Shown: positions 15,410-34,900, counted from the stretch's first letter. The stretch: DNA of 64,000 bases from Actinomyces oris (GCF_006546825.1 NZ_VICC01000004.1:1-64000); one strand, 5' to 3'. Translations and numbers: made by a program. Notes: a model not told the origin generated them from the letters alone.

Positions 15410-15955
15410 TCAGACGACGGGAGCGACCTGGCGGGCCAGCTCGACGAGATGATCCAGGTTGGGGGCGATGTCCTCAGCGGCGGCGCCCCACAGGCGCATG
15501 ACCAGGTCCACCGGGACCGTGGGCAGTCCCGCCAGCCTCAGGACGACGACGCCCTGGGTGGGGCCGTTGGACTCGTAGAAGGCGGAGAACCCCACCATGT
15601 CCGGGCCCGGCCGCAGGCGCACCAGCTCGGCCTCGGGCAGGAGCGCGGCGACGATCTGGCGCTGGGTGGCGCGGCGCCCCTCCTTGGAGCCGTCATCCTT
15701 GGCGATCTCCAGGCTGAGGTCGATGACGAAGGGCGGGTGGGCGACGTCGTCGATATGCATGAGGCGGGCGAAGCGGCCCTGGCGCTCCATGGCCTGCAGC
15801 TCGTTGAGCAGGGACTCCAGCTCGGAGCGCCACTGCGGCCCGGTCACTCCCAGGTGGGCGCTGCGGTGCCTGGCCTCCTCCCGCGCCCATCCCGGCGGTG
15901 GGAAGGGCGGGATGATCACCCATCGCTGGGGATCAGGAGTGACCGCGATCTGCAC
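15410..15955 (-). CDS. Unknown protein divergent from the FHA/kinase genes
   Basis: Not recognised. 181 residues, soluble, no signal peptide or membrane helix. It starts at a GTG with GGAAGGAA 6 nt upstream. The N-terminus is rich in Pro and Trp (QRWVIIPPFPPPGW). The middle is helical with Arg/Glu and Gln. The C-terminal half alternates hydrophobic strands (GVVVLRLAGLPTVPVDLVMRLWG). It starts 67 bp from the short RDD-FHA gene on the opposite strand. A helper of the signalling module is a guess from position only. The 130 bp separating it from the ABC-F end include a near-palindrome at 15365-15382. Confidence 0.75.
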   Translation of the reverse strand: MQIAVTPDPQRWVIIPPFPPPGWAREEARHRSAHLGVTGPQWRSELESLLNELQAMERQGRFARLMHIDDVAHPPFVIDLSLEIAKDDGSKEGRRATQRQIVAALLPEAELVRLRPGPDMVGFSAFYESNGPTQGVVVLRLAGLPTVPVDLVMRLWGAAAEDIAPNLDHLVELARQVAPVV

Positions 15956-16007
15956 TGTGTGTTCCTTCCGAGACCTCGTCCGACTGCGAGGCAGTGGGCT
16001 GGGCGCC

Positions 16008-16013
16008 TACCAT
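16008..16013 (+). promoter_or_regulatory. Putative -10 box (TACCAT) of the RDD-FHA/kinase operon
   Basis: TACCAT lies 9 nt before the ATG at 16023, with no ribosome-binding site between. This supports 16023 as the start and suggests a leaderless first gene of the operon. Confidence 0.35.
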
Positions 16014-16022
16014 GTCTGTCCT

Positions 16023-16766
16023 ATGAGGACCCGAGAGCGACATACGACAATTATGCCTGCATCCGCACGCCGACGTGTGGTCCGCGTGCTGGTGGATGCG
16101 GGGCTCATCATCGCACTGTGTGCCGTCACGGAGCGCTGCTGTGGAATCTTATTCGCTGTCGGGGCGGTTGTGCTGCTTATTGCTGTGATGACTGCCATGA
16201 TGGCGATGACAGGCGCCACACCCGGCGGGCTGGTGACGGGGGTCCGGCTGCGGAGGGTGGCGGACACAAACGGTCCGCCCGGACGCTCAGCGGTGATTTA
16301 CGTCGCATTTTTGGGCCTCTCTTTGGTGGCAACCGCAGGCCTGGCCCCCCTGGTGTTGTGGATCCTCTCACTATGGCGTGCTGAACAGCGCACCTGGTTC
16401 GACCGACTGGCCGGAACGGTTCTTCTCAGCGCCAGGCCGACCTCGGTGTCGGCCTGTTCTCTGGTGGTTGAGGGCTCAGTAATCCCAGTTCTGGGGCCGA
16501 TTGTTCTCGGGCGCCGGCCGGCCCCGATCGAGTCCCACCCCGATGCGCAGCTCGTCGCGGTGCTCCGTTCGGAGGACTCCGTGTCCAAGACGCACGCCCT
16601 GTTCGTGCCCGCTTCGGATGGGGTACTCGTCACAGATCTGGGTTCGACGAACGGAACCCACATCGAGGACGAGGAGGGCGTTCACCGACTCTCACCCGGC
16701 CGACCGGAGTACGTGCACCGGGGACGGCAGGCATACTTGGGTGACGGTGTCTGTATCGTCCGTTGA
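16023..16766 (+). CDS. Short RDD-FHA membrane protein
   Basis: A membrane protein that probably binds phosphothreonine peptides on its cytoplasmic side. 247 residues. An N-terminal RDD-like part has hydrophobic helices (about 20-62 and 85-115), with GLVTGVRL and WFDRLAGT typical of RDD ends. A C-terminal FHA domain (about 150-247) has VLGRRP, SVSKTHALF and DLGSTNGTHI, covering the Arg, Ser-x-x-His and Asn-Gly positions of the phosphate-binding loop. I start it at the ATG at 16023, since the longer upstream frame overlaps the divergent gene. The TGA lies 8 nt before the next ATG. It is a small paralogue of the 1,122-residue RDD-FHA protein on the other side of the kinase. Confidence 0.85.
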   Translation: MRTRERHTTIMPASARRRVVRVLVDAGLIIALCAVTERCCGILFAVGAVVLLIAVMTAMMAMTGATPGGLVTGVRLRRVADTNGPPGRSAVIYVAFLGLSLVATAGLAPLVLWILSLWRAEQRTWFDRLAGTVLLSARPTSVSACSLVVEGSVIPVLGPIVLGRRPAPIESHPDAQLVAVLRSEDSVSKTHALFVPASDGVLVTDLGSTNGTHIEDEEGVHRLSPGRPEYVHRGRQAYLGDGVCIVR

Positions 16767-16774
16767 GGAGAAAA

Positions 16775-18937
16775 ATGATGACAAACAGCCCGAACAGCAG
16801 CGCGAACAACGAGGTCTGGTGGACCGAGGGTTCGTGGACAGGCGTGGTCACGCCACGTGCTGTGATGATCCTGCCCCCGTCGGTGCCGCAGGACCTCACC
16901 GAGCGCCTGTGGCGGCTGCTGCGCAGTGAGGAGGCCTCGCTGACGCGGGCCCTGGATGAGCTGGTGATGGGGATGGGCGGACGTCTGGGTGCGATCCCGG
17001 ACTTCGTGCTCGCCGTCTCGGCGCCCGAGGATGTCTTCCACGTGGCGCTGCGCGGTGCCCCGCAGATGGAGGTCGACGGCAAGGCGCTGGACGCCTCCGC
17101 GGTCACCACCTGGTTCGAGACGACGGTGACCGCCCCCAACTCGGTCATCGTCAGCGCGCCCGACGGCGCCGGACAGGTGCGCCGCCCGGCGGTCGACGCC
17201 GTCGTGAGCACCGGCCACCTGGTGCTGCGCGGATCGGAGAAGTCGAGCGGGACCCCGTCCCCCAGCCGTGCATCGTCGAAGGGGTCCGGTGACTCCGACG
17301 ACGATGACCCTGACCCGGCTGGTCCTGACTACTCCACCGCTTCTGCCGGCTCCGCCGGAACCCCCGCTGCTGCCGTGAGGACCTCTCGGTCCTCACGTCG
17401 GGCATCGCGTCGCGCCTCGCGCCGTCAGTCCGCCTCGTCGGACCACTCGGAGCAGGACGACTCGTCTGAAGGGGCGCCTGCCGAGACCGCCGAATCCGCC
17501 GACGTCGTCGACGACCTCATCGAGATCGCGCAGGACAACGCCGAGCAACAGGCCCTCGATGGTGCTGAGCTCGCCGCGTCCCTCGAGAGCGCCGAGGCCG
17601 CTGAAGCCGCCGGTCAGTCGGAGGACTCTGCTGAGGACTCCGATGCTGCTGAGGAGTCGGCCCTGATCGCCGACTCCGAGGGACCCGCTGACCTGCTGGC
17701 CGTCGTGGCGGGCATCTCCGAGGCCGCTGAGGCGACCGAGGTGACGCCGTCGCCCGAGCTGCCCGAGTACTCAGAGACTCCCGACGAGACCCCGGAAGCC
17801 CAGACCCCTGAGGCCGCCGAGGTCGCCACTGAGTCCTCACCGGAGACCTCCGATGAGGATCTGCTGATCGCCCCCGTCTTCGATATCCCGGCCCTGCCGA
17901 TCCCCTCCGCTCAGGAGGCAGAGGCCATGATCCCGCCCCCTCCGCCCCCGTCGAGCGAGGATCTTGAGGCTGCTGGTATCAAGGACGCTGCCGCCGAGGT
18001 AGCCGAGGTCGCCCAGACCCCGGCCGACTTCGTGCCCGTTGAGGCCGCCGAGGCTGCCGTGGTCGCGGAGGCCACTGCTGTTGCCGAGGCCGCCGCGCAG
18101 GCGCACGCCGAGGAAGAGCCCGTACGCTCCGGGGACCACGACGGACAGACCATCAACAGTCTGCCCGAGGACCTCTCCCAGGAGCTGCGTGCCGAGCTGC
18201 TCAACCAGGGGCTCGGTCCCCTGGAGCCGAGCCAGTCGGCGGAGGCCGTCGAGTCGGCCGGTTCCGCGGCTGTGGATGCCGCAATGGTCGAGCTCGTGCA
18301 GCCCTCCGTCGGCGAGCCGGCGACTGCCGAGCTCGGTCGCGGGGACCACGATGGTCAGACCATCAACGGTCTGCCCGAGGACCTGGTCGGCGAGCTCGTC
18401 TCCCTCGTGGGCACCGGGCCCTCCAGCCCGGCGTCCCCGGTCTCGGCGAGCTCTCCCAGTGAACCCGACGCCATCCGGATCGTGCTGTCGGCGGTGTGCC
18501 CCCAGGGCCACCCCAACCCCACGAACTACACCGTGTGCCGCGTCTGCGGAGCTGAGCTCAACCGTCCGGCCAAGTCGGTGGCCTGCCCCCCTCTGGGGCG
18601 CGTGGTCACCTCCGGCGGCGAGAGCATCGAGCTCAACCGTCCCCTCCTGGTGGGTCGCAACCCTGTGGCCGACGACATCAGCAGCGTCGCGGAGGTCCCC
18701 CTCCGTCCGCTGACTGTCGCCAGTCCCAACCAGCTCGTCTCCCGCAACCACATCCTCATCGACCTGGATGCGTGGAGCGTTCTGGCCCAGGACCTGGGCA
18801 ACTGCAATGGCACCGTTCTCAACCGCCAGAACGAGGCGCCCGTGCGCCTGTCCTCGGCGAATCCGGTGCTCCTGCGCAGTGGAGACGTCCTCGACCTCGG
18901 CGATGGTCAGACCCTCGCCTTTGAGAACCTCCCCTGA
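16775..18937 (+). CDS. Acidic-linker protein with zinc ribbon and C-terminal FHA domain
   Basis: A probable cytoplasmic adaptor of the kinase module. 720 residues; the ATG at 16778 is an equally good start (7 nt from GAGGAG). The N-terminal folded part (about 1-155, with WWTEGSWTGVV and LPPSVPQDLTERLW) is of a type I do not recognise. A long Ala/Glu/Ser linker follows (about 160-560), including the repeated DHDGQTIN motif. Then come a zinc-ribbon-like Cys cluster (CPQGHPN...CRVCGAE, about 573-595) and an FHA domain (about 600-720; LLVGRNP, LVSRNHILI, NCNGTVLN). Its TGA overlaps the kinase ATG by 1 bp. The acidic linker suggests a flexible, phosphorylatable scaffold. That is inference. Confidence 0.85.
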   Translation: MMTNSPNSSANNEVWWTEGSWTGVVTPRAVMILPPSVPQDLTERLWRLLRSEEASLTRALDELVMGMGGRLGAIPDFVLAVSAPEDVFHVALRGAPQMEVDGKALDASAVTTWFETTVTAPNSVIVSAPDGAGQVRRPAVDAVVSTGHLVLRGSEKSSGTPSPSRASSKGSGDSDDDDPDPAGPDYSTASAGSAGTPAAAVRTSRSSRRASRRASRRQSASSDHSEQDDSSEGAPAETAESADVVDDLIEIAQDNAEQQALDGAELAASLESAEAAEAAGQSEDSAEDSDAAEESALIADSEGPADLLAVVAGISEAAEATEVTPSPELPEYSETPDETPEAQTPEAAEVATESSPETSDEDLLIAPVFDIPALPIPSAQEAEAMIPPPPPPSSEDLEAAGIKDAAAEVAEVAQTPADFVPVEAAEAAVVAEATAVAEAAAQAHAEEEPVRSGDHDGQTINSLPEDLSQELRAELLNQGLGPLEPSQSAEAVESAGSAAVDAAMVELVQPSVGEPATAELGRGDHDGQTINGLPEDLVGELVSLVGTGPSSPASPVSASSPSEPDAIRIVLSAVCPQGHPNPTNYTVCRVCGAELNRPAKSVACPPLGRVVTSGGESIELNRPLLVGRNPVADDISSVAEVPLRPLTVASPNQLVSRNHILIDLDAWSVLAQDLGNCNGTVLNRQNEAPVRLSSANPVLLRSGDVLDLGDGQTLAFENLP
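18131..18385 (+). repeat. Two near-identical 45-bp coding repeats (DHDGQTIN motif)
   Basis: Copies at 18131-18175 and 18341-18385, exactly 70 codons apart, differ at about four bases. Each encodes GDHDGQTIN, then LPEDL. They sit in the disordered linker of the zinc-ribbon/FHA protein. Conservation at both DNA and protein level suggests a recent duplication of a short functional motif. Confidence 0.8.
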
Positions 18938-20403
18938 TGCTGGATCACAAGGGACCGCCTCCGGTCATCTCCGGGTTCACGTACCTGGAGAGACTCGGAG
19001 CGGGAGGCTACTCCACGGTCTACCTCTTCGAGCAGCACATGCCCCGCCGCGAGGTCGCGGTCAAGGTCATGAACGCTGACGTGGAGGACAAGACCGCCTC
19101 CCGCTTCGAGTCGGAGGCGAACCTCATGGCGCGGGTCTCCTCCCACCCGGCCATCCTGTCCATCTACGGCGCGGGCGTCTCCGCCGACGGCCACCCCTTC
19201 CTGGTCATGGAGTACTGCCCGCCGCCGCAGCTGGGCGCCATCTTGCGCCAGGGTCCCCTCAATGTCGCTGAGACCCTGTCGACGGCGATTCAGATCGCCG
19301 GAGCGGTGGAGACCGCTCACCGGGCCGGCATCGTCCACCGGGACATCAAGCCCGCCAACATTCTGTTCACCACCTACCGCCGCCCGGTGCTCTCCGACTT
19401 CGGCATCTCCGCCATGAGTGGCCCGGAGGGTGCCGAGGAGCTGCGGGGGATGAGCGTGCCCTGGGCTCCCCCCGAGCAGCTGGTGGGGATGCGCTCGGCC
19501 AACCCGGCCTCCGACATCTACTCCCTGGGCGCGACCACCTTCGCGATGCTCACGGGGCGCAGCCCCTTCGAGACCGACGGCATTCCGGACGTCTACGAGC
19601 TCTCCCGCCGTATCGTCAAGGACCCCCTGCCGCCGCTGGGGCGTCAGGACGCCCCGCCGTCGTTGCACCGCGTGCTGTCGGTGGCGATGGACAAGAACCC
19701 GGACTCGCGCTACCCGACGGCGCTGGCCTTCGCCCGGGCGCTCCAGCAGGTCCAGGCCGAGCTCGACCTGCCCATCACGACGGTCGACCTGTTCCAGGAG
19801 CCGGACAAGGCCGCGAAGTCCGCCCGGCGCCCCAACCCCGACGAGGCCGACACCGCCACGAAGATGGGGGTCTTCAACCAGGTCGACGTCACCAGCGAGC
19901 ACATCGCCATGCGGGTGGAGCCCGACAGTGAGGACAAGGGCTCGTCGTCGGACTCGGAGGCCGGTGAGTCGAGCCGCCCCAACCGCATGCGGGCCGTCCT
20001 GACCGGTCTGCTGGTCGTGGCCATGGTCGCCGCCGTCGTCGCCGCGATCGTCGTCTCCCAGAACCAGGACAAGCAGAAGAAGCCCAACAACCCCATTGCC
20101 ACGATCGCCCCGCAGCCCGGCGCCAACCCCCTGCAGGCCTCAGTGCCCATGGTGGGAGATATCGTCGGTGAGGCACAGGGCGACGGCACGGTGAAGTTCA
20201 GCTGGGGTGAGCCGGAGACGAACTGGTCCGGCAGCTACCTCTACCGGGTCAAGCTGCCCGACGAGGAGACCGAGGTGGACTCCACCCGCACCAACGAGGT
20301 CACTGTCAACGCCCAGCCGGCGCGCACCTGCCTCGAGGTCACCGCGGTGCGCGCGGATGGTAAGGCCTCGCCGGCCAAGACCGCCTGCGTCGACACTCCC
20401 TGA
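18937..20403 (+). CDS. Membrane Ser/Thr protein kinase with extracellular Fn3-like domain
   Basis: A PknB-type signalling kinase. 488 residues. The kinase domain (about 15-275) has the Gly-rich loop GAGGYST, K43 in AVKVM, HRDIKPAN with catalytic D136, and DFG at 154-156. An activation loop ends in MSVPWAPPE and has Ser but no Thr. A juxtamembrane linker follows, then a membrane helix (about 350-372). The extracytoplasmic part (about 400-488) looks Fn3-like with two cysteines. It overlaps the preceding FHA gene by 1 bp, so FHA adaptor and kinase are made together. The arrangement resembles Pkb2 of bifidobacteria. It converges on the long RDD-FHA gene of the opposite operon. Confidence 0.93.
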   Translation: MLDHKGPPPVISGFTYLERLGAGGYSTVYLFEQHMPRREVAVKVMNADVEDKTASRFESEANLMARVSSHPAILSIYGAGVSADGHPFLVMEYCPPPQLGAILRQGPLNVAETLSTAIQIAGAVETAHRAGIVHRDIKPANILFTTYRRPVLSDFGISAMSGPEGAEELRGMSVPWAPPEQLVGMRSANPASDIYSLGATTFAMLTGRSPFETDGIPDVYELSRRIVKDPLPPLGRQDAPPSLHRVLSVAMDKNPDSRYPTALAFARALQQVQAELDLPITTVDLFQEPDKAAKSARRPNPDEADTATKMGVFNQVDVTSEHIAMRVEPDSEDKGSSSDSEAGESSRPNRMRAVLTGLLVVAMVAAVVAAIVVSQNQDKQKKPNNPIATIAPQPGANPLQASVPMVGDIVGEAQGDGTVKFSWGEPETNWSGSYLYRVKLPDEETEVDSTRTNEVTVNAQPARTCLEVTAVRADGKASPAKTACVDTP

Positions 20404-20530: not shown

Positions 20531-23500
20531 TCAGACGACCTCCACCTTGAAGGCGATGCGGCCGAAGAAGATCGTGCTGCCCTCCAGGGCGGACAGCGCC
20601 TTGTCCGGTACGGCCTCGACGGTGCGCCCGTCGCGGTACTCCACCCGCGTCCCGTTGGTGGAGTGCAGGTCGGTGACCCACACCCCGTCCAGCAGCGGGA
20701 AGATCGCCGCGTGCGTCTTGGACACCGAGCGCGTGGGATCGTCGAGAGCCACGCGCTCCGCCCCGGGGTAGGCCGAGATGTTGTCGGGGTCGCGTCCCAC
20801 CACCGTGGGCTCGTGGATGACGATCGGGTTGCCGCCCAGCAGCGGGACGAGACGCACCGACAGGGCCGGGGCGGCAGAGGAGGCCGACGGCAGCGACGGT
20901 GTGGCGGTCTGGGCGCTTGTGGCGGGAACCTGGGTGAGCGGGGGCAGAGAGACGCCTGCTGCGGGGGCGGAGGCAGGCGCGGCCGCCTCCGGCATGCTGC
21001 CGGCACCGTGCCTGGACGCGCCGGTGTGGGGCTGCGCCGACGCCTGGACGGAGGCGGAGCGCTCGTGACGAGCGGCGCCGGCCTCCGCGGCGGGGGCATC
21101 GCTGCGGGACTCGCCGGGGACGGCGCGCTCATCCGCGGGAGAGGGGATACCCGGCCCTGAGAAGCGGTGCGAGGCGTGGGGCCGACGCGCGGAGCTCCCC
21201 TCCGCAGCGGCCGTGCTTGCTGCGCTGCCGGCGGAGGTTCGAGCGTGGCTGCGGTGACTGCGCACGGTCGGGTGCGTGTTCCCCTCAGAGGAGGCCGGCA
21301 CACCACCGGGCACGGTGGCCGGGTTGGTCAGATCCATCGGGGACGCGTGCTGCGCAGGCGCCGAAACCGTCTTCGGCTGCTGCGGCAGGCCGTCGTCGGA
21401 GACGATGGCTCCTTCCGGCAGGGAGTCCACCGTGGCGGCATCGACCGAGGTGGGAACCGAGGACCAGGGCACCGAGTCGATGAGGGCCTGCGTGTTGCGG
21501 TCTCCTGAGGGCAGGATGCTGGAGGTGTCGAAGGTGTGCGCCACCTCCGGGACGGGGCCTGCTCCGGCAGCGAAGCGCTGCCGATCGGAGGCGAAGAGGC
21601 TCTCGCGACGAGGAACGCCGGGCTGTGACACCGACTCTCGCTGATCCTCGGCAGGTGCAGCAGACGAGCCGGAGGTCTTCTTGCCGGTGTGACCGGGCTG
21701 AATCCTCCAGCGCTGGGCGTGGGCGTGTCGTGGTTCCATCGTTTGTGATGTTACGGGTTTTGTGGCTTTCGAGCGCGGGACTTGTGGTGTGGAAGTCGCA
21801 TCGTGCGACGTGGAGGACTCTGTTGCCTCGGAATCAGCAACTGTTTTGGAGGATTCCGCTGAGGGCGTCGTCGCTTCGGACTGCTGCTGATCGGCCGGGT
21901 GCTCAGGTGAGGGCGGTGCGTGGGACGAGGGCTTCTCGGCGTCGTCACCCTGACCGTCGGCGGCATCCGTGGACTGAGACGGCGCGTCCTCCACGACGTC
22001 GAGCGTAGCGGTTTCGGAATCCGTCTGCGAGGGCTGCTGCGTCGGGGCGTCGTCGGAGTCCGATGATGCGGCCACCGGCGGCTCCTCGGTGTCCGTCTCA
22101 GACGGCTCGTCGGACGGTTCCTCGACGTCCGCAGCCGGTTCATCGACCGGTTCCACGGCGTGCTCGTCAACCGCCTCCTCAGCTTCCTCTGCCGATTCTT
22201 CGGCCGTCTTTTCGGTCGGTGCTGGGCCGGCCGGCTGTGATGATGCGGCCGGGGCGGCGTCGTCCGCCTCCGGCTCGGTGGCCTCGGCGGGGGCGAGCGG
22301 TGCCGGCTCCGTGTCCTGATGAGCCGGGGGAGCGGCGTCCTCCGCGGCCTCGGGTGCGGTTGCGACGGTGTCCTCGTCGGCCGGACCCGTCGAGAGTTTC
22401 GATGCTCCCGCCACGGCCGGCAGGGAGTCGGCCCGGGCCGCGGCCATGGCAGCGGATGCCTGAGGGTCCATGGGGGTGGCCGAAGCGACGGCGACGGCCT
22501 CGGCGTCGGTGTCCACAATGGCCGGACCGGCCTCCGCCGCCGACTTCGCGGAGGCGGACGATGACACGGTCGCCGCCTTGGTGGCCTTGACGGTGACCTG
22601 AGGCGCGGCTGCGATCGTTGCGGCATCCGTGCTCGCGGCCTGGCTGGCGGCGGAGCCTCCTGAGACCACAGGCGCGTAGCCGTCCGAGGAACCGGCCTTC
22701 AGGGCGCGACCGGCATGGCGCGCGGGTCGGGCCGGACGGGGCCGACGGATCGAGGAGGAGACCGGATCCGACGTCGTCGGGTGCGCGTTCCTGCCGGAGG
22801 AGTCGGTGATGCCGGCCTCGGTGGCGCTCTGGGCGCCCGCGGTGGCGGCCTGCTGGGTCTCCTGTGCCGTCTCCTGGCCGGCCATGGCGCGTGTCGAGCC
22901 CGGACGGGGGCCGCGTTTCCTGGGCTTCCTGCCCCGTGCCGTCTTGCCCGCCTTCTTCTCGGTCTTGCGCACGGCTCGCTCGGAGGGCCGAGTGCGGGGG
23001 GCGGACTCGCCTGACTTCTCGGTGGCCTGAGTGGACAGTTCCGCGGCGGGTTCCTGGCCCGCGGCGCTGCGCTCGGCGGGGGAGGAGACAGACGCGCGCC
23101 TGGCGGCGTCCCAGGCCTCACCGATGTCCTGAGCGGAGGACGTCTCGGGCTCCTCCGGCGCCACGGCACCGGCGTCGGCCCGGGGGCCGAGGGAGGCGGG
23201 CTCGGTGACTGGGCGGTGTGCCGACCCGGCCTCTGAGGGAGCAGGTCGTGCGGGACGCCTCGGCCTGCGGGCGTTGAGCAGCGCCATCCCGGAGAGCTTG
23301 TCGTGCCAGCCGCGCCCCTCGGGGTCGGCGGCCGCCGTGCGCATGAGCGCGATGGTGCCCAGGCCGAGCGTGGTGATGCTGACGGCCAGGATGAGATCGG
23401 CGTGGAGGAACGAGCCCAGTGGTGAGGGGGTCTGGTTGCGGGCCCCCAGCATGCGGATCCTGAGCAGGCGCCCGCCCAGGGACCAGCCGGTGGCGGCGAT

Positions 23501-23899
23501 GGCCAGCCAGCGTGCCCCGACGACCAGACCGAAGGCGATGAGCCCGCTGGTCAGGGCCGGGCGGCCGCCCACCTGCCAAATGACCGTGGTCAGGCCCCCG
23601 ACCAGAAGCGAACCGATGACGAGGTCGATGACCCCGGCGACCACGCGTGCCCGCACCGGGGCCGGGGGGAGGCGGTGATGCGCAGCTGAGGGCGTGTGCG
23701 CGCCGGCCCGGGCCGCGTCGGGCTCCGGGCCCCGGGAGTCGGCCGTCTGCGCTCCGCCGTGCGGATCACCGGGGGCGCTCGGCGCCGTGCCGTACGGACT
23801 GACGACGTCGGTGCGCGGCGCGTCATCGGATGGACGGGAGGACGTCGGTCGGCCCGCAGCGGTCGAGGCGCTGCTACGGGCGTCAGCAGTGATCGTCAT
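20531..23899 (-). CDS. Long RDD-FHA protein with 800-residue low-complexity linker
   Basis: A membrane FHA protein. 1,122 residues from the ATG at 23899 (AGGAGG 7 nt upstream; overlap of 4 bp with the preceding gene). Longer in-frame starts lie inside that gene and are rejected. An RDD domain (about 75-225) begins RARVVAGVIDLVIG and ends GRGWHDKLSG. A disordered linker rich in Ala, Ser, Glu, Pro and Thr runs from about 230 to 1025. The C-terminal FHA domain (about 1030-1122) shows VVGRDP, SVSKTHAAI and DLHSTNGTRV, closely matching the short RDD-FHA protein. It is the last gene of the minus-strand run and may localise phosphorylated partners at the membrane. Confidence 0.88.
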   Translation of the reverse strand: MTITADARSSASTAAGRPTSSRPSDDAPRTDVVSPYGTAPSAPGDPHGGAQTADSRGPEPDAARAGAHTPSAAHHRLPPAPVRARVVAGVIDLVIGSLLVGGLTTVIWQVGGRPALTSGLIAFGLVVGARWLAIAATGWSLGGRLLRIRMLGARNQTPSPLGSFLHADLILAVSITTLGLGTIALMRTAAADPEGRGWHDKLSGMALLNARRPRRPARPAPSEAGSAHRPVTEPASLGPRADAGAVAPEEPETSSAQDIGEAWDAARRASVSSPAERSAAGQEPAAELSTQATEKSGESAPRTRPSERAVRKTEKKAGKTARGRKPRKRGPRPGSTRAMAGQETAQETQQAATAGAQSATEAGITDSSGRNAHPTTSDPVSSSIRRPRPARPARHAGRALKAGSSDGYAPVVSGGSAASQAASTDAATIAAAPQVTVKATKAATVSSSASAKSAAEAGPAIVDTDAEAVAVASATPMDPQASAAMAAARADSLPAVAGASKLSTGPADEDTVATAPEAAEDAAPPAHQDTEPAPLAPAEATEPEADDAAPAASSQPAGPAPTEKTAEESAEEAEEAVDEHAVEPVDEPAADVEEPSDEPSETDTEEPPVAASSDSDDAPTQQPSQTDSETATLDVVEDAPSQSTDAADGQGDDAEKPSSHAPPSPEHPADQQQSEATTPSAESSKTVADSEATESSTSHDATSTPQVPRSKATKPVTSQTMEPRHAHAQRWRIQPGHTGKKTSGSSAAPAEDQRESVSQPGVPRRESLFASDRQRFAAGAGPVPEVAHTFDTSSILPSGDRNTQALIDSVPWSSVPTSVDAATVDSLPEGAIVSDDGLPQQPKTVSAPAQHASPMDLTNPATVPGGVPASSEGNTHPTVRSHRSHARTSAGSAASTAAAEGSSARRPHASHRFSGPGIPSPADERAVPGESRSDAPAAEAGAARHERSASVQASAQPHTGASRHGAGSMPEAAAPASAPAAGVSLPPLTQVPATSAQTATPSLPSASSAAPALSVRLVPLLGGNPIVIHEPTVVGRDPDNISAYPGAERVALDDPTRSVSKTHAAIFPLLDGVWVTDLHSTNGTRVEYRDGRTVEAVPDKALSALEGSTIFFGRIAFKVEVV

Positions 23900-26481
23900 G
23901 ACCGCAACCTCCTGGGGCGACGTGACCGCCTGTCGGCGGGATGGACGAGGGAGCGCGGGGACAAACGGGCCCATACCCGTCCCAGGCGCGAGCGGTCCGC
24001 CCCCATGCAGCGGACGATCGCATCTGAGGATTCCCACAACTCCCCTAGAGCGTACGATGGCGGCTCCCCGGAGCTGAAGACCTGGGTGTCAACTGCTCCG
24101 GCGAATCGAGGCAGATCGACCTGTGGGAAGTGAGGAGCCAGCTGCGCGGCCGCCTCCCTCCGAGTGGCCCCCCACCCGGGGTAGCGCCCCAGGTCGCGGG
24201 CCCGGTCAAGGATCTCCTCCCAGGCTCCCAGGGCCTTGCCGACGCCGGTGCGTGCGCGTCGGCGTCGGCGCCGCCAGGCCTTCCACCCCAGGACCGAGCC
24301 CACGATCATCGCGATCGCCAGGACGGAGCCTCCGACGGCGATGACCGCCGTCGGCAGACCGCCCTTGTCCTTGTCCTGGGGGTCGTCGCGCTGCGGGTCC
24401 TCGTAGTTGGGGGGCAGCTGGGCCGGGTCCTCATTGGGCAGCGGGGGCTGGAGGACGTTGGGCTCGGGGTTGGAGACCTTCTGGGTGGTCTGCTGCTGGG
24501 GAACCTGGTCGCGGTCCGGCGTGACGTCGAAGGACACCCAGCCCAGCCCCTCGAAGGGGATCTCCACCCAGGCCTTGACGTCCTCGCCGGTGACGGTCTT
24601 GGCGTCGCCGTCGGTGGCCGGGTCGAAGCCCATGACGACGCGGGCCGGGATGTTGAGCGAGCGGCACATGAGCATCATGAGCACCGAGTACTGCTCGTCG
24701 TCGCCGATGAGGGAGTCGGCCTCCACCATGGAGGCGATACGGGCGGCCCCGTGCCCGGGCTGGGAGGGGCTCTTGGTGCCGTCGGAGTAGTAGCTCGTGC
24801 GCAGGCGCTGCTGAAGCGCCCGGACCTGCGCGATGGGGTTGGACTCGGCCCCGACGATCTCCTTGGCCAGGGAGGCCACCGACGACGGTACCTGCTCGAC
24901 CGGTCCCAGCGAGGTCTGCGCCAGGGAGGCCTTGTTGAGGGCGGCCTCGGAGGGCGCGGTGTAGGGGGCGACCCGCTCGGTGAGGACGTCACCCGAGGCC
25001 AGGCCGCTGGTGGCGATCCCGGTGGAGGAGAACTTGTCGTAGTACATGCCCTCGCGCAGGGCCGACTGACGCGGCCCGGAGGACTCGATGCGGATCGTCT
25101 TGGGCATGGTGGGCACCCAGGGGAAGCTGTAGTCCTCGATGGTCAGGGAGGAGGTCTGCTTGCGTCCGTCGAGCCGGTTGGCCGTCAACTGGGTCTTGTC
25201 GCCGATGCGCTCGAAGCGCGACTGGCCGTTCTCGTTCTGACCGATGTGGGCCGACAGGCCGTCGTAGGAGTCCAGGGCGGCGATGCGGATGCGTCCGCCC
25301 GAGGGCAGGTTGATCGGCTTCATGAGCCGGGTGTGGGCCTTGTCCGTCTCCAGGGTGCGCACCAGGGACAGGGGGCTGGCGTACTCGGTCACGTCCAGCG
25401 GCGGCTGGAACAGGTCGCGCACCACCGTCCGGGAGGCGGGGGCGGCAGGGGTGAGGACCATGGCGGCCAGGGAGGTGACCAGCAGCAGCACGGCGGCGAT
25501 GACCGTTCCGCGCAGGGCCGCCCGCCCCAGGTCCCCGGTGGAGCGGGCGCTCGTGGCGCCCGAGGTGGTCGAGAAGGAGCTCAGGTCCAGGGCCTCGACG
25601 ACGTGGCTGCGCCGCTGCCGCAGGGAGCCGCAGGTCCACAGGGCCAGGATCCCGACGACGAACAGGACGCCCAGCACGGTGGGGCGCACGGTCTCCTGCC
25701 CGCCCCAGCCGATGCCGACGGCGGGCAGGCAGGTCAGGGTCAGGCCGGCCAGGACCTCACGGCCCGCCAGGATGAGGCGGGTCGCCAGCGCCGAGACCAC
25801 CAGCCCGGTCATCCAGGGCAGCACCGTCATGCCGCTGAAGGAGCTCAGCGGCATCGGCACGGTCAAGGCGTCGCGCCACACGGTGATCGTGGAGCCCAGC
25901 ACCGTCTTGATCGCCGCGGTCCCGGAGCCGACGTCGGTCAGCAGCCACGGGGCCACCAGGACGTGGACCAGCGCCAGGGCCGCCATGCTCGGCAGCACCG
26001 ACAGGCGCAGGCGCGAGCAGAGCATGGAGGTCAGGGCGCCGATGAGCGCGCCGTAGCCGACGGCGAGGCAACCCACCACGGAGGCGAAGATCGGCAGGAA
26101 GGGGACCGCGCCGATGGCGAGGATCCCGGCCATGAGGACCAGCTCGAGGGCGGCGGCGGCCGGCGTGGGCGGCTTGGCACCGCGCCGGGGAGGCAGGAAG
26201 CGGCGGGCGGAGAGCGCCGGCCGGGAGGGACGCGACAGGAGCGGTCCGGCGCCGGTGATCGAGCGGGCCTGACGAGTCGTCTCGTTGCTGTAGAGACTGC
26301 GCGTGCGCGACGACGTCGCCGTCGACCAGGAGGAGGGCGACTCGTCCGAGCCTCCGGAGGGTGCGGCGGTGACCTGCGAGGGGGCCTCAGCCGGAGAGGG
26401 CGCCCCGGCCGGCGAGGCGCCCGAGATCGGGGAGCCCGCGGTGCGGGGGGATGCGGTGGTGAGGGTTGTCGTGGGGGTCAT
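23896..26481 (-). CDS. TgpA-type transglutaminase-fold membrane protein, catalytic residues lost
   Basis: 861 residues. A hydrophilic N-terminus (about 1-110) is followed by about seven membrane helices (about 115-350), an extracytoplasmic region with a transglutaminase-like core (about 540-660), another membrane helix (about 705-730) and a cytoplasmic tail. Active members use a Cys-His-Asp triad in a G-x-C-E-Q-F / H-A-W-V-E / F-D-x-T-P framework. Here those positions read GDDEQY (D595 for Cys), VKAWVE (K636 for His) and FDVTP (D652 kept). It is therefore probably not a peptidase or transglutaminase. The framework is otherwise intact, which suggests a binding role. Overlaps of 4 bp with both neighbours tie it to DUF58 and RDD-FHA. 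Confidence 0.88.
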   Translation of the reverse strand: MTPTTTLTTASPRTAGSPISGASPAGAPSPAEAPSQVTAAPSGGSDESPSSWSTATSSRTRSLYSNETTRQARSITGAGPLLSRPSRPALSARRFLPPRRGAKPPTPAAAALELVLMAGILAIGAVPFLPIFASVVGCLAVGYGALIGALTSMLCSRLRLSVLPSMAALALVHVLVAPWLLTDVGSGTAAIKTVLGSTITVWRDALTVPMPLSSFSGMTVLPWMTGLVVSALATRLILAGREVLAGLTLTCLPAVGIGWGGQETVRPTVLGVLFVVGILALWTCGSLRQRRSHVVEALDLSSFSTTSGATSARSTGDLGRAALRGTVIAAVLLLVTSLAAMVLTPAAPASRTVVRDLFQPPLDVTEYASPLSLVRTLETDKAHTRLMKPINLPSGGRIRIAALDSYDGLSAHIGQNENGQSRFERIGDKTQLTANRLDGRKQTSSLTIEDYSFPWVPTMPKTIRIESSGPRQSALREGMYYDKFSSTGIATSGLASGDVLTERVAPYTAPSEAALNKASLAQTSLGPVEQVPSSVASLAKEIVGAESNPIAQVRALQQRLRTSYYSDGTKSPSQPGHGAARIASMVEADSLIGDDEQYSVLMMLMCRSLNIPARVVMGFDPATDGDAKTVTGEDVKAWVEIPFEGLGWVSFDVTPDRDQVPQQQTTQKVSNPEPNVLQPPLPNEDPAQLPPNYEDPQRDDPQDKDKGGLPTAVIAVGGSVLAIAMIVGSVLGWKAWRRRRRRARTGVGKALGAWEEILDRARDLGRYPGWGATRREAAAQLAPHFPQVDLPRFAGAVDTQVFSSGEPPSYALGELWESSDAIVRCMGADRSRLGRVWARLSPRSLVHPADRRSRRPRRLRS

Positions 26482-27857
26482 AGTGCTCGCCTCAGGGCGG
26501 TGGGAAGCTGCTCAAGACGGTCCATGTCCACGACCGGCATCGTTCCGGCGTGGTGGCGCGACAGGCCGCGCTGGCCGGCGCGCAGGGCAACGGTCACCAT
26601 GGGCAGCGGTGCGAAGCCGCGGGCCCGGGCCAGCACGGCGCGGTCGACCTGCTGGCCGGTGACGAGGACGACGATAGAGGCATCGGGGTGCGCCGTGCAG
26701 GCGTGTCGCACCAGCAGGTCGCAGCCGTAGTCGTCCTCACCGGTGCTCAGCAGGCAGGACGTGTCCAGCATTCGCAGGGCGGAGGAGGTGGGCAGAGCCC
26801 CGATCTGGGTGATGAAGCGGACCTCGCGCCCGTCCTGGATCGCGTCCATGGCCAGTGAGCAGGCGATGGACACCGCGGTCTCGAAGTCCTCCTCGCCGGC
26901 GTAGTCGTCCTGACGGGTGGACAGCAGGACGAGCAGGCTGGAGCGGCGGGTCTCCTCGAACTGACGCACCATGAGCCGGCCGGTGCGGGCCGTGGTGCGC
27001 CAGTGGACGTTGCGCCGGTCATCGCCGGGGACGTACTCGCGCAGGGCGTGGAAGGCGACGTCGGAGCTGGACAGGTCCTGGGTGACGGCGCCCTCGATGT
27101 CTCGCAGGACGCCGTGCAGGACCGTGCCCAGGCGCACGGTGCGCGGGTGGATGTGGATGTGCTGCGGGGTGCTCAGGGAGCGTTCGCGCTGGAGCAGCCC
27201 CACCGGGTCTCGCTGGACCGCCAGGACCGGACCGACGGTGACGATGCCGCGGCGCTGCGTGGGCAGGACGAAGCCGCGCTCGTGGACGGCCCCGGGGGTC
27301 AGGGTGGGGACGACGAAGACGGCACGCCCCGGCCCCACGGGCATCTCCATGCGCGAGGGCAGCAGCGGCCGGGTACGGGGGTTGGTGACGGTCAGACGGA
27401 TGAGGGCGTGGTCGCCCACGGTGACGCGGGACTCGAGCAGGTTGTGGTTGACCGAGTAGCCGCGGCGGGGGATGAGCCACAGCCAGGCGCTCACCGCGAC
27501 GATGCCGACGGCGGCCGCGGCGCTCCACGCCTCCTGCCAGCCCATGACGGCCCCGGTCAGTCCGCAGGCCGCCAGCAGCACCAGGCTGCCCCATCCGATC
27601 GGGGTCACGGTGTGCAGCAGCCAGCGCAGCGGTCGCAGCGCCACCGCGGCCGCTGCGGCCAGTCGGGACTGCGAGGGCCTGGCGGTCAGGGCCTCGTTCG
27701 TGGAGGTCGACGACGCAGCCGATGCCGCGGGCTGCGCGGAGGCCGGAGCCCCCGAGGAGGTGGGGGCTGCGGCGGAGGAGGCGGATGCGCCGGTCCCGCC
27801 CGCCGAGCCCGGACGGGCCTGGAGGGCAGGTTTCTGCGACGTCGTCTGAGGCGTCAT
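26478..27857 (-). CDS. DUF58 membrane-anchored protein
   Basis: 459 residues from the ATG at 27857, 5 nt after the MoxR stop. An Ala/Ser-rich N-terminus and two close membrane helices (about 75-115) are followed by a beta-rich region and the DUF58 signature ALREYVPGDDRRNVHWRTTA (about 275-295). The rest resembles a von-Willebrand-A-like fold. Such proteins are thought to be clients or partners of MoxR ATPases, and the MoxR-DUF58-transglutaminase order is widespread. Its function here is unknown. Confidence 0.88.
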   Translation of the reverse strand: MTPQTTSQKPALQARPGSAGGTGASASSAAAPTSSGAPASAQPAASAASSTSTNEALTARPSQSRLAAAAAVALRPLRWLLHTVTPIGWGSLVLLAACGLTGAVMGWQEAWSAAAAVGIVAVSAWLWLIPRRGYSVNHNLLESRVTVGDHALIRLTVTNPRTRPLLPSRMEMPVGPGRAVFVVPTLTPGAVHERGFVLPTQRRGIVTVGPVLAVQRDPVGLLQRERSLSTPQHIHIHPRTVRLGTVLHGVLRDIEGAVTQDLSSSDVAFHALREYVPGDDRRNVHWRTTARTGRLMVRQFEETRRSSLLVLLSTRQDDYAGEEDFETAVSIACSLAMDAIQDGREVRFITQIGALPTSSALRMLDTSCLLSTGEDDYGCDLLVRHACTAHPDASIVVLVTGQQVDRAVLARARGFAPLPMVTVALRAGQRGLSRHHAGTMPVVDMDRLEQLPTALRRAL

Positions 27858-27862
27858 ACGGC

Positions 27863-28828
27863 TCAGTCGCGGGTCGTGGGGGCGGGGACCTGGGCCAGCG
27901 CGGCGGTGATGACGCCGGAGGCGGTGGCGCCGGTGAACTCGGCGTCGGGGTCCATGACCAGGCGGTGGGCCCACACGACCTCGGCGAGGTCCTTGACGTC
28001 GTCGGGCAGGACGTAGCTGCGGCCCTGGGAGGCCGCCCACACCCGGGCGGCCCGGGCCATGCCGATGGCGCCACGGGTGGACACGCCCATGCGGGTCTCG
28101 TCGGCTGCACGCGTGGCCTCCACCAGCGCCCCGATGTAGTCCAGCACCGAGTTCTCGATGTGGTTCTCGGCGGCGAGGTCGGCCATGGAGGCCACCACGG
28201 AGGAGGCCACGACCGCGGACAGGCTCTTGGAGCGGTCCGGGTGGGCCGAGCTTGACAGGATCCGGGTGAGCGCCTCCCGGTTGGGGTAGCCCACGGAGGT
28301 CTTCATGAGGAAGCGGTCGAGCTGGGCCTCGGGCAGGCGGTAGGTGCCGGCCTGCTCGATGGGGTTCTGGGTGGCGATGACCATGAAGGGGCGCTCGGTC
28401 GTGTGACGCACGCCGTCGACCGTCACTTGGGACTCCTCCATGACCTCCAGGAGGGCCGACTGGGTCTTGGGGCTGGCCCGGTTGATCTCGTCGGCCAGGA
28501 CGATGGAGGAGAAGATCGGGCCGGCGTGGAAGTCCCAGGTGCCGGTCTTCTGGTCGTAGATCGTCACGCCCGTGATGTCGCTGGGCAGCAGGTCGGGGGT
28601 GAACTGGATGCGAGAGTGCGTCCCCTGCACCGAGGCCGCCAGGGCCCGGGCCAGGGCGGTCTTGCCGGTGCCGGGGGCGTCCTCGAGCAGGAGGTGGCCC
28701 TCGGAGAGCATGGTGGTCAGGGCCAGCTTGATTACGTCCTCCTTGTCGAGCAGCGCCTGACCGACGTTGTTGACAATGGTGGAGAAGGCGTCAGCGAACC
28801 ATGTCGCGTTCTCGGGAGTCATCGGCAT
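27863..28828 (-). CDS. MoxR-family AAA+ ATPase
   Basis: A chaperone-like AAA+ ATPase. 321 residues with Walker A APGTGKT (51-57), Walker B VLADEINRAS, a sensor region VIATQNPIEQAGTYRLPEAQLDRF and the C-terminal lid. I start it at the first ATG of MPMTPEN, 11 nt after GAAGGA. A further upstream in-frame ATG at 28888 lacks a ribosome-binding site. MoxR proteins assist assembly of VWA or DUF58 partners, and the DUF58 gene is immediately downstream. The 80 bp between it and the giant gene include a small hairpin (CCGGTT/AACCGG) just after that gene's stop. Confidence 0.92.
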   Translation of the reverse strand: MPMTPENATWFADAFSTIVNNVGQALLDKEDVIKLALTTMLSEGHLLLEDAPGTGKTALARALAASVQGTHSRIQFTPDLLPSDITGVTIYDQKTGTWDFHAGPIFSSIVLADEINRASPKTQSALLEVMEESQVTVDGVRHTTERPFMVIATQNPIEQAGTYRLPEAQLDRFLMKTSVGYPNREALTRILSSSAHPDRSKSLSAVVASSVVASMADLAAENHIENSVLDYIGALVEATRAADETRMGVSTRGAIGMARAARVWAASQGRSYVLPDDVKDLAEVVWAHRLVMDPDAEFTGATASGVITAALAQVPAPTTRD

Positions 28829-28908: not shown

Positions 28909-31900
28909 TTACTGCTGGGTACAGGTGATGGTCTGGTCCCAGTTCGGTGTCCGGTGGGGGAACTTGTGCCGGGCGTATCCGTTCTTATCGAGGGCGATCT
29001 CCTCCTCGTTCCAGGCGGGCTGCCAGTTCCAGGTGTCCCAGTACCAGTAGCCGCAGGACACGGTGCTGTTGGGGTTGCCGGTGATGTCAAAGACCATCTG
29101 GTAGCAGGTGCCCCAGGGGCCGAAGGGGTGGCACCTCTGCGTGTAGTCCACGTAGAACTTCTGCTCGGTGCCGACCGGGTAGGCCTGCTTCTTGTCATCG
29201 TCATCGTCGTCGTCATCGTTGTCGTGCTTGGACGGCCGGGTGACGGTGTCGCAGCCCCACTCGGAGGTGCCGGCGTTGGTCCTGGCCCGCACGCACCAGG
29301 TGAGCGACTCGCCGCGCTTGAGCTTGCCGTCATAGGTGTCACCGATCTCGATGTCCTCGACGGACTTGCCGCCGTCGTCGGTCTGCTCGTACTCGGCGCT
29401 GGCGCCGTTGTTGGCACCGGGGCTCCAGGAGCAGGAGACCTTCTTCTGCTTCTTGCCGGTGAGCTCGCAGCTGACCGAGGGGGCCGACGGCGGACCGTAG
29501 GGCGCCACCGGTGAGGAGGCGACGACATCGGAGTACTGCCCGCCGCCGTTGGCGCGGGCGTAGACGGTGTAGGCCTGCCCGTCGTTCAGTCCCCGGATGG
29601 TCGAGGAGCTGGTCCAGGTGACCTGGTTCACGGAGTACTCCACCGTCAGCTCGCCCACGCTCCAGCCGTTGCCGGCCCGGGGCGAGGAGCTCACGGACAG
29701 CTCGCCGCTGTTGCCGGTGGCCTTGACGGCGGGGGTCGACGGCGTCAGCGGGGTCGGCTTGTAGGTGTAGCTGGCCTGGCCCGAGGTCTTGGAGCCGTGA
29801 CCGTTGTCGGCCTCGACCCAGAAGGTCCAGGTTCCGCGCGAGACCGAGACCGTGGTGGAGGTGGCCCCTCCCACGTTCTTGGAGTCGCTGGTGTGCCCGT
29901 TGGAGTAGTGCAGCGTGTAGCTCACGGGGCTGCCGTTGCCGTTGGCGGCCTGCCAGCCGATGGTGACCGTGTCCCCGTTGGGGGTGATGACAGGGGTCCC
30001 GGGGGTGCCGGGTTCGCCGTAGGGCGTCACCGAGTTGGACGGGGAGGACCACTCCGAGACCGTCCCCTGGCTGGACCTGGCGCGCACCTGAGCGGTGTAG
30101 GCGCGTCCCGGGGAGACGTCGAAGGAGGCCGAGTCCCCGGAGATGCCCGACTGCACGGTGCCGTCGGACAGGCGCACGTCATAGGTCGCCGTGCCCCCGA
30201 AGGGGTCGTCCACTTGGGTCCAGGCGGCGGTGACCTTGCCCGAGCCGGCCGTCAGCGTGGGCGCGGCCGGGGTCTTGGCGGTGGCGTTGTGCTGGTAGGA
30301 CACCGTCGCGGCCTCGGAGTCGCCGTACTTGTTGGTGGACACGACCTGGATGCTGTAGCTCTGACCGGGCGCCAGGCCACTGATGAGGCAGTTCGAGGTC
30401 GAGCAGGACTGCTCGGAGCCGTTGACACTGACCTTGTAGCCGGTGATGGGGGAGCCGTTGGCGGAGCCGTCGGTCCAGGACACGCGCGCCGAGTCGGCGT
30501 CCACGGGGGTCACGCTCAACCCGGAGGGGGCTGCGGGCGCCACCCCACCGACCTGGACGGTGATGGTGCCGGTGACGGCCCGGGACTCCGAGCCGGTGGA
30601 GTCCAGCACCTTGTACTGCGCGGTGATGGTGCCGTGGAACCCGTTGTTGGGCGTGATCGTCACGGTCGTTCCCGAGGCGCTGATCGAGCCCTGGCCGGAG
30701 GTGATCGTCGGGGTGCCGGACAGGGTGATCGGCTTGTCCGGGAAGGGGTTGCTCACCGCCTTGGACACGTCGGTGCTGACCGCCTCGCCGTTGCGGGACT
30801 CCAGGTTGATCGGGGCCGTGGTCATGAGGGGCTTGTTGGAGGCGCTGACCCGCACGGGCAGGGAGGCGCTCACCGGCGGGTTGACGCCGTCGGAGACCGT
30901 GATCGGGATGGAGCCTGTGGTGCCCTCGGCGGTCTTGTCGGAGGCCTTGACCGACAGTGTCGAGCCGCTCAGGGAGATCTCGAATCCCGCGGGGGCGGGA
31001 CCGGCCTGGAAGGAGAGCTTGTCATTCGGGTCGGGGTCGGTGGCCATGGCCGCCAGGTTGGCTGTCACGGCCCCCTCGCCAGGGGCCACCGTCATCTCGG
31101 TGGGGGTGAAGGTCGGCGGCCGGTTCGTCGAGGATTCCACGATGATCGGCAGCGTGAGCGTCGCGCTCAGGGCGTCGGAGCCGGTGCCGTCGGCCACGGT
31201 GAAGGTCACCGAGGTCTGCCCGGTGAAGCCCGAGTCGGGGGTGAAGGACAGCGCCGACCCGCCCGAGGCGACCTTGGCGTCCTTGGTGCCCTTGGCCATG
31301 TGGATGGAGGAGGTGTCCGTGATGACGGGCTTGGTGCCCTCCCGGGTGAGGATGTAGGAGGACAGGTTGATGTCCGTGGTCTTGTCCGCAAGCACTCGGG
31401 CGGGCACGGCCGAGGGGTTGATGCGGGGCCGCAGGGCCGAGCGGGCCGGCACCACGACGACGGCGTGGCCGGTCAGCCCGTCGGCGTCGGTGATCGTGTA
31501 GAGCACGAGCCGCTGGGTCTCGCCCACCGTCAGGCTCAGCGAGTCCTTGCCCACCTCGACGTCGGGGTCGGAGGAGGACAGCTTGAGGTCCCACGGCGAG
31601 CCGTCGGTGTCCTTGTCGTTGTCCAGGACCGGGACGGTGACCTTGCCGTTGGCGTCGACCTGGTCGACGGTGACGTAGTCGTCCACGCCCACCGGGTTGG
31701 CCAGGGGGGCGTTGCTCGAGACCTGGACGGTGACGGTGCCGGTGTCGGTGCCGCCGCGTCCATCGGAGACGGTGTAGGTGACCGAGTGGTTGCCCTCCTT
31801 CTCGGGCAGGTCGAGCACCAGGCGGCCGGCGCGGGTGGACACGCCCAGGGAGGGGTCGCTGGAGGCCGGGTCGCCCTCCAGGGACAGGCTGTCGCCGTCG

Positions 31901-34900
31901 GTGTCCAGGTCGTTGGACAGCACGTCCACGGCCACGGTGCGCCCGGGCTTGGCCACGACCAGGTCGTCAGTGGCCACCGGGGCCACGTTGAGCGGTGAGG
32001 CCTGGGCCACGCCCACTCGGACCGTACCGGTGGCCTGGGCCCCGAAGCGGTCCTCGACGACGTAGGTGAAGGTGTCGGTACCGGTGGCCCCCTCGGAGGG
32101 CGTGTAGGTCAGCCACGAGGAGTTGATCTCCACCGAGCCCAAGGAGGGGGCCTGGTTGAGGCCCACGAGGCTCACCGAGTCGCCGTCGGGGTCGATGCCG
32201 TCCAGCGGCACGGTGATGTTCGTGGTCGAGCCGGCCAGGGTGCGGGCCTCCAGGTTGCGCGGTGAGGGCGCGGAGTTGTGCTCGGCGTCCTGGGCGCGCA
32301 CCTCCACCGTCAGAACGCCCGAGGCGGTCTGGCCCTGGTCATCCTTGGCCGTGTAGGCGTAGGAAGTGCGGCCGGGCTGGTTGCCGGCGCGGAAGCGCAC
32401 GGTGTTCTCGCTGACCCAGGCGGTGCCCAGCTCGTCGCCCACCAGGCTGACCTGGGAGTCCACCGACAGGTTGAGACCGGCGGGGGAGGAGTCGTTGTCC
32501 AGGACGGAGGCGGTGACGACGTCGCCGGCTCGCACGACGGCGGTGTCGTTGGTGACCACCGGTGGCTGAGGCTGGGACTGGGTCACCGGGACGATGGCGA
32601 CCTTCCCGGTGGCGCTGGAGGTGCCGTTGGTGACCGTGTACTCCACCGTCAGGTTGGCCGGCACGGTGCTGGCCGCACTGATCTGCAGCAGGGAGTGATC
32701 CACGACCGTGACAGTGACCCCGGAGTCCGGCGGGGCCTTGACCGACTGCAGGACCAGGATCCCCCCGGAGGGGTCGAAGTCGTTGGTGAGCGGGGCGATG
32801 GTCGTCGAGCCGCCGTTGCGCAGCAGGGCGGTGTCGTTCTCGACCTCGGGAGGCACGGTGGCGTCGGCCTTGGGCGTGACGTCCACACGCACGATGCCCT
32901 GAGCCGTGTTGGCCCCGTCCATGACGTCGTAGGTGAGGTAGTAGGTCTGGGCCTGGGCATTGGCCTCGGTGGAGAAGGTGAAGACACCGGCCTGCTGGTC
33001 GACGCTGATCGAGGTCCCGGCCGGGGCCTCCTGCACCGCGGCCAGGCGCAGGGTCCCCCCGGAGGGGGAGGTGTCGTTGTCCAGGGGCGAGACGACGGCC
33101 TTGGAGCCGGCGACGACGCGCACGTGGTCGGCATTGGCGATCGGCTTGGCCGACTGGGCCGGCTGCACGTCGACCTTGACCACGCCGGAGGTGGTCTCCC
33201 GGCCGTCGGAGACGGTGACGGTCAGGTCGCGAGTGCCGGTGCCGGCACCCAGCTCGCGCACCGTGACGGTGCCCTCGTTGGAGACCTTGGTGTCCAGGCC
33301 CTCGCCCTGGGCGGAGACCAGGTACAGGTCGTCCCCGTCCGGGTCCAGCCAGTGGCCCAGCACGTCCAGGGAGCCGGAGGCCTTCTCGGCGACGGTCAGG
33401 GTGGGGGTGGTGATCTGCTTCGGGGCGCCGTTGACGTCCCAGCCGTGGACGTCAACGGTGGCGACGGCGGAGTCGCTCATGCCGCGGCCGTCGTCGGCCG
33501 TGTAGGGCACGGAGAAGCTGCCGGAGGCGTTGTCCGGAACGTCCATGCGCAGAGCCAGTCCGCCCTGGGCCTTGGTGGCCTTGAGCGAGCCTCCGTTGTC
33601 CTGGGGGGTGGCGGTGAGGACGTCGCCGTCAGGATCGGAGTCGTTGGCCAGCACCGGCAGGAGCGCGGAACGGCCCGGGCGCACGCCGAAGCTGTCATCG
33701 GCCGCCTTGGGGGCGTGGTTCTCCTCGGTACGCTCCGGCGGGGTCTGGGAGTCCGAGGTGTTGGCCGAGTCGTCCTTCTGGTCGGCGTTGTCGTCGGTCT
33801 GGGCGGTCTTGTCCGTCCAGTCGTCGATGAGGACGAGGTCCTCGTTGGGCAGCCACACCGAGCCCGTGTCCAGGTCGTTGAGCACGATGGCGTCGCGGTT
33901 GACCCGGAAGACCGGGGCGGAGGAGGCGGCGAGCTTGTCGTCGTGGGCGGTGTCGGTGCCGCCGCCGAACAGCCCCGAGCAGCTGCGCACGAACTGGCCC
34001 GAGCCGGACCAGGCCGCGTAGACGCACTTGCCCAGGCGCACCGGCTGAGCGGGCACGCCCTCGGGGGCGGAGCCCTCCTTGGCCGACGGCGTCCTGGTGA
34101 CCTTGCCCCCGTCCATGGGGACGGAGATGAGCTCGTTGCGGGAGGCGACCAGGACCGAGTCGGCATCGGGGCCGGGCTGCTGGAGCACCAGACCGGAGGT
34201 CCCCAGGCTGACGGACTTGCCCTCGGGCAGGTGGAGGATGCCGGTGCCGCGCTCCAGGACCACGGGCTGGTCACCGACGGCGGTGATCGCCAGATCGGTG
34301 CCGGCGGTCAGCTTCAGGGAGGTGTTCGTGGCCTCCTTCCAGCCCTTGTCGCTGGTCTCCAGGGAGACCAGCGACTTGCTGGTGGCCGAGACGGCGTGGA
34401 TGGCACCGTCCTTGCCGATGGCGGCCACGACGTCGGGCATGCCGGTGACCACGGGGGCGGCCGCGGTCAGGGAGCCGGCCTCCTTGGCCTTGGCGGCGCG
34501 GATGGTGCCCTGGACCTTGTCGACCGCCATGACCCGGTCCCCGCCCTGGGCGATGGTCACGCCCTTGGTGAGCTGGGTGCGCCCGGAGAAGGCGACCTGG
34601 GAGGGGTCGACCGAGGAGACGGAGGCGTCGCCGGAGTCGGGGACCAGGACGTCCTCGGCGTTCTGGGTGACGTCGAAGGAGGACGAGGAGGTGCGGATCG
34701 CGCCGTCGACCTCGCGGGAGGGATAGTTGAGGCGGGCCACCAGGTGCTTGGAGGTGGAGGTGACCCACACGCCGCCGTCATTGAGGTGCAGGTCGGCCTG
34801 GGCCACGCCCTCGTGGAGCCAGGCGGCCGTTCCCAGGGCGGTGACGCAGACGACGGCGGCCAGGGTCGACAGGCGCTTGCGCAGCCGCACGCGCTGGGCG

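Follow-up and report, generated by a model that had tools for sequence, protein, structure and literature searches.

What remains of a transglutaminase when the cysteine and the histidine of its catalytic triad have been replaced, and what might such a protein still be kept for? This question is raised by a gene of Actinomyces oris in the 64,000-nucleotide stretch GCF_006546825.1 NZ_VICC01000004.1:1-64000 (hereafter the window), which encodes a TgpA-like membrane protein of 861 amino acids with a transglutaminase (TG) domain (23896..26481, minus strand; all other features of the window given here also lie on this strand unless stated otherwise). Alignments to relatives strongly support the view that this member of the TgpA family is an ancient pseudoenzyme. 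It almost certainly does not act as a thiol transglutaminase or protease, and we assign a probability of roughly 65% to a putative non-catalytic role in binding or signalling.

A transglutaminase core with altered triad positions

The Transglut_core domain (PF01841) comprises residues 537-652 (24526..24873) and was detected with an E-value of 1.5e-18 and a score of 67.5 bits (cut-off 23). It was the only Pfam family that matched the protein at E-values up to 0.01. The triad columns were set by alignment to TgpA of Pseudomonas aeruginosa (6g49) and to a profile in which active domains are represented. The Cys column is occupied by D595 (GAC, 24697..24699), the His column by K636 (AAG, 24574..24576) and the Asp column by D652 (GAC, 24526..24528). 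Of the residues that characterise a transglutaminase, the protein thus lacks the Cys and the His and retains the third member, an Asp or Glu. A preliminary description, made from the sequence alone, had named exactly these three residues within an intact core framework, and both the alignment and the codons bear it out. A sequencing error was rejected as the cause, since the change from Cys to Asp takes two base changes and a second isolate, A. oris WVU627 (99.6% identical over the matched stretch), carries identical GDDEQYS and VKAWVE motifs.

The AlphaFold2 model of residues 345-730 is confident (mean predicted local distance difference test score of 87.7). In this model, D595 opens the core helix, K636 occupies the second position of the long strand that comes next, and D652 is located behind the subsequent strand; active enzymes have their triad at these very places. 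The best solved match of the model is TgpA (6g4h; Z 21.5, root-mean-square deviation (rmsd) 3.6, 248 aligned residues), and the same holds for the Bifidobacterium catenulatum form of the protein (Z 23.2, rmsd 3.2, 253 aligned residues). Protein 4.2 also appeared among the structural matches, with a Z of 6.6 (rmsd 3.8, 136 aligned residues) that lies under the value of 8 that would carry weight alone.

The preliminary description had pointed to residues 590-660 of a predicted structure as the place to look, and to C606 (24664..24666) as a Cys that might have taken over the active site. This residue was rejected as a substitute nucleophile: it is located on the helix predicted to begin with D595, 11 residues further along, and its column contains a Cys in only 8 of 100 relatives. 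An isopeptide bond or salt bridge between D595 and K636 was likewise dropped, because sister Actinomyces have residues other than Lys in the His column (S, A, T, Y or R).

Spread of the Cys loss and constraint on the core

Relatives of the domain were gathered at genus, class and order level, from 75 named loci (mostly Bifidobacteriaceae) and from a set of lower-scoring matches. Removal of near-copies left 131 non-redundant domains. Twenty-two of these bear the Cys; they are ordinary TgpA domains and keep both C and H. The remaining 109 are Cys-less, with 100 in a single clade (support 99) that stems nearly entirely from FN3-type clusters and nine in a sister group. Within the 100-domain clade, the Cys column reads D in 53, S in 23, A in nine, E in nine and G in six domains, and 90 domains contain no Cys at any position. 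The His column has retained H in 37 and the Asp column D in 48 cases. The pattern is far beyond chance. In a tree computed with the triad columns left out, a single change of the Cys state (with a moderate support of 88) stands beside at least 15 changes of the His and at least 21 changes of the Asp. Most likely, the Cys was therefore lost once, before these actinobacterial lineages split. The suggestion that the loss could be a trait of the whole subfamily holds for the Cys, which none of the 100 domains retains in its column; it does not hold for the His, which was lost repeatedly. In the comparison with active TgpA proteins and with other MoxR-DUF58-FN3 clusters, which the preliminary description had proposed, the active domains keep the Cys.

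Does the loss of the triad reflect decay? The missing catalytic residues would be expected of a decaying pseudogene that is retained only by its position in an operon. For the window and six close relatives, we calculated the ratio of non-synonymous to synonymous polymorphism (pN/pS). It was 0.064 in the core and 0.19-0.31 in the other four regions of the gene. The core that lost catalysis is thus the most constrained of the five regions. Close relatives were used for this calculation in place of the distant Actinomyces, which are near saturation at synonymous sites. A pseudogene, which is contradicted by this constraint, by an open frame without stop or frameshift, by clade-wide motifs and by the occurrence of the Cys-less trait in about half of the sampled genomes of the order, was rejected as hardly conceivable. 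The absence of Cys from its column throughout the clade and the strong constraint agree with the maintained pseudo-enzyme suggested earlier. The putative binding or scaffolding role proposed along with it would be in line with all observations. In Arthrobacter sp. StoSoilB13, the TG gene (L003:8620-11125) falls into two frames that split near L003:10140, which reflects either a genuine frameshift or an error in sequencing.

The clade has a residue signature of its own. G576, H577 (24751..24753) and R581 (24739..24741) are present in 96, 97 and 98 of the 100 domains, respectively, and H577 also in eight of the nine sister domains. Neither H577 nor R581 is a consensus residue in the 22 active domains. 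Overall, the set GH-x3-R, G-[DN]-x-E-Q-[YF]-A and AWVE is kept fixed.

Such nearly invariant polar residues would also be compatible with an enzyme of changed chemistry, in which the Asp or Ser that has replaced the Cys would form a hydrolase or metal site together with H577 or the old His. This idea gains from the 27 of 100 clade domains that have kept D-H-D, from the Ser in the Cys column of the bifidobacterial proteins and from papain-like families that are known to carry Thr or Ser in the site (PMC10318531). However, the His and Asp columns drift, and A, G and E occur at the Cys column of otherwise normal members, which indicates that no side chain is needed there. Given that Ala and Gly are tolerated where the Cys once stood, we regard changed chemistry as improbable.

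Within the genus Actinomyces, none of the 20 genomes read retains the His in the window-type copy; its column is occupied by K, S, A, T, Y or R instead. Several Actinomyces (L034, L036, L037, L038, L011 and L118) carry a paralogous second cluster, in which the TG reads GDDEQYA...HAWVE and thus has kept His and Asp, with Asp in place of the Cys. Some genomes of the genus encode an active TgpA together with Cys-less copies. From this co-occurrence it could be argued that the Cys-less protein regulates an active paralogue of its own cell or serves as its decoy. No second Transglut_core gene was found in the 3.17-Mb window genome, yet the core is strongly constrained, which makes such a role very improbable. 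On contig C2 of the same genome (L274:7149-10470), a fragment of 144 amino acids, from the N-terminus of another FN3-propeller protein, is located directly before FHA and kinase frames. It looks like the scar of the second FN3-MoxR-DUF58-TG cluster kept by other Actinomyces, and the window genome would therefore have only the D-K-D copy. No relative was found on viral contigs.

An operon with a giant surface protein

The TG gene is the fourth gene of an operon which begins with a giant Ig-like/FN3 surface protein of 2096 amino acids with Big_9, Cadherin and fn3 repeats (28909..35199), followed by a MoxR AAA+ ATPase (27863..28828; AAA_3, E-value 1.1e-61) and a DUF58 protein (26478..27857; E-value 3.4e-12); the starts of the latter two are given according to the annotation of A. 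oris WVU627. An RDD-FHA protein (20531..23899; Pfam RDD and FHA) follows the TG. The TG gene shares a 4-bp ATGA overlap with its neighbour at either end, so that the tight operon recorded in the preliminary description is confirmed. Running towards the operon on the plus strand are genes for a second RDD-FHA protein (15597..16766), an FHA protein (16763..18937) and a Ser/Thr protein kinase (18937..20403; Pkinase, E-value 1.5e-38). Many other genomes have FHA, PP2C, FHA and kinase genes following on the same strand. In A. oris WVU627 (L002, NZ_CP116225.1), the cluster is located on a 415-kb record that is labelled as a plasmid and was typed as non-mobilizable; possibly, this record is a piece of the chromosome which carries a plasmid label.

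Neither the DUF58 protein nor its relatives have the DxSxS-type metal motif that a vWA-like domain would be expected to show. Loss of this motif as a parallel change of the Cys-less clade was rejected, as the Listeria DUF58 protein beside an active TgpA also lacks it. The TG protein itself has an N-terminal membrane region (residues 107-345, 25447..26163) that was recognised by hydropathy peaks and may correspond to a divergent TgpA_N region. TgpA_N (PF11992) gave no match in the window protein at an E-value of 0.01 and matched in relatives such as L034, L008 and L110. A C-terminal membrane helix was predicted by hydropathy at residues 713-731 (24289..24345).

Most of the TG relatives had been found with Cys-less seeds, which is a bias. 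For this reason, we carried out a counter-test by searching with the propeller part of the surface protein. In clusters chosen in this way, some of which had been seen before, the TG was Cys-less in 16 of 16 readable cases. Across all wide loci, 115 Cys-less domains (a count in which some loci appear twice) and no Cys-bearing domain lay near such a surface protein; the six Cys-bearing domains were all found elsewhere.

These observations can be combined in the following way. The Cys was lost from the TG domain of FN3/Ig-MoxR-DUF58-TG clusters, which, by analogy with TgpA, probably lies outside the membrane, and the His and Asp columns would then have been free to change. The dead domain may serve as a docking surface that retains either the operon's own giant Ig/FN3 surface protein or else a wall ligand. 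Its docked state could be relayed via the membrane helices and the C-terminal tail and so reach DUF58 and the MoxR ATPase, and this relay might be controlled by the kinase, the FHA proteins and, where present, the phosphatase of the cluster. As the link to the FN3/Ig protein is strict, the surface protein would be the most natural partner, although we put this forward tentatively, as a suggestion with odds below even. A more far-reaching and rather doubtful version is that the loss of the Cys changed the function instead of merely abolishing it, and that the old active-site region has become a ligand site with H577, R581, D/N594, E596 and Q597, which are fixed across the class. The MoxR-DUF58-pseudo-TG set would then be an envelope sensor that, on the outer side, reads or holds the giant surface filament and relays to the Ser/Thr kinase network.

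The sister group offers a different perspective. Its nine domains mostly read GTSEQF or GTAEQF. In five of its MoxR-DUF58-TG operons (L004, L008, L125, L136 and L273), Cys-less GTSEQFA or GTAEQFA domains occur without an FN3 protein; some sister-clade TGs have lost all three triad residues and some have an upstream kinase gene. As this clade manages without the surface protein, a wall ligand may be the partner instead. The dead domain could in general be a wall sensor that binds a wall ligand, such as peptidoglycan stem peptides, in place of the surface protein and reports the state of the wall to MoxR-DUF58 and the kinase network, and peptide binding has been proposed for inactive transglutaminase domains (PMC3482391). 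This would leave unexplained why the main clade is so strictly linked to the FN3/Ig protein, and we consider it rather unlikely.

Several points weigh against docking of the surface protein by a dead domain. The sister operons imply that the surface protein is not the partner of every Cys-less TG. H577 and R581 might, judging from their near-fixation as new polar residues, have a catalytic role, and the D-H-D retained in part of the clade could in principle support another chemistry. In addition, the support for a single loss of the Cys is only moderate.

Relation to known systems and significance

The protein resembles the TgpA family (PF11992 TgpA_N and PF01841; P. aeruginosa TgpA, 6g49/6g4h) in its fold, in an N-terminal membrane region combined with a putative outside domain and in the gene order MoxR-DUF58-TG, which is also found in Listeria. 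It differs by the loss of Cys and His and by its own signature (GH-x3-R, GDxEQYA and AWVE), and its cluster differs by the FN3/Ig surface protein and the kinase-FHA genes.

The closest counterpart of the locus is the bifidobacterial PFNA cluster, which consists of pkb2, fn3, aaa-atp, duf58 and tgm (PMC6803598, PMC8430577). The window shares its core gene set and the order fn3-aaa-duf58-tgm, and Tgm belongs to the same Cys-less clade as the window TG. In Actinomyces, the kinase and FHA genes are downstream and convergent, and no pkb2 is located ahead of fn3. Bifidobacterial Tgm proteins also lack the Asp that the window TG retains: all three triad residues are gone in 62 of 62 Bifidobacterium domains read, a set which does not include B. 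longum, to which the PFNA model strain belongs. The columns hold mostly Ser at the first position, then Thr, Glu, Gln or Ala at the second and Tyr at the third. Tgm is called an enzyme in a review, "presumably a cysteine protease".

Inactive transglutaminase domains as such are already known. RloB of gammaproteobacteria is an inactive transglutaminase fused to seven membrane helices (PMC12239564). It is encoded beside an ATP-grasp protein and a retropepsin-like protease, in contrast to the MoxR, DUF58, FN3/Ig and RDD-FHA genes of the window, and it has its own Pfam family, to which the window protein shows no match at E-values up to 0.01. Inactive transglutaminase domains have also been described in polymorphic toxins, where they were proposed to bind peptides (PMC3482391), and in protein 4.2 (EPB42) and FBXO21 (PMC10318531). 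The toxin domains, protein 4.2 and FBXO21 have lost at least one triad residue, and a peptide-binding or structural role is proposed or known for them. They are separate proteins with other domain partners, which share the superfamily with the window TG. In the literature searched, which covered few subscription journals so that an earlier report may exist, there was no report of inactive MoxR-DUF58-FN3 transglutaminases or of an inactive Tgm.

The gene is carried as a 'transglutaminase' by very many actinobacterial genomes, and for its bifidobacterial version an enzymatic part in host-microbe communication has been proposed. If it is true that the domain can neither cross-link nor cut, models for PFNA, for gut bifidobacteria and for oral Actinomyces would need a docking or sensing role in its place. 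The family would also be a clean case of a pseudoenzyme, with most likely a single origin, a class-wide spread and the gain of its own conserved signature, and the active TgpA cousins in the same genus are its natural controls. Should the ligand-site reading be true as well, a conserved envelope sensor of actinobacteria would be carrying the wrong enzyme label.
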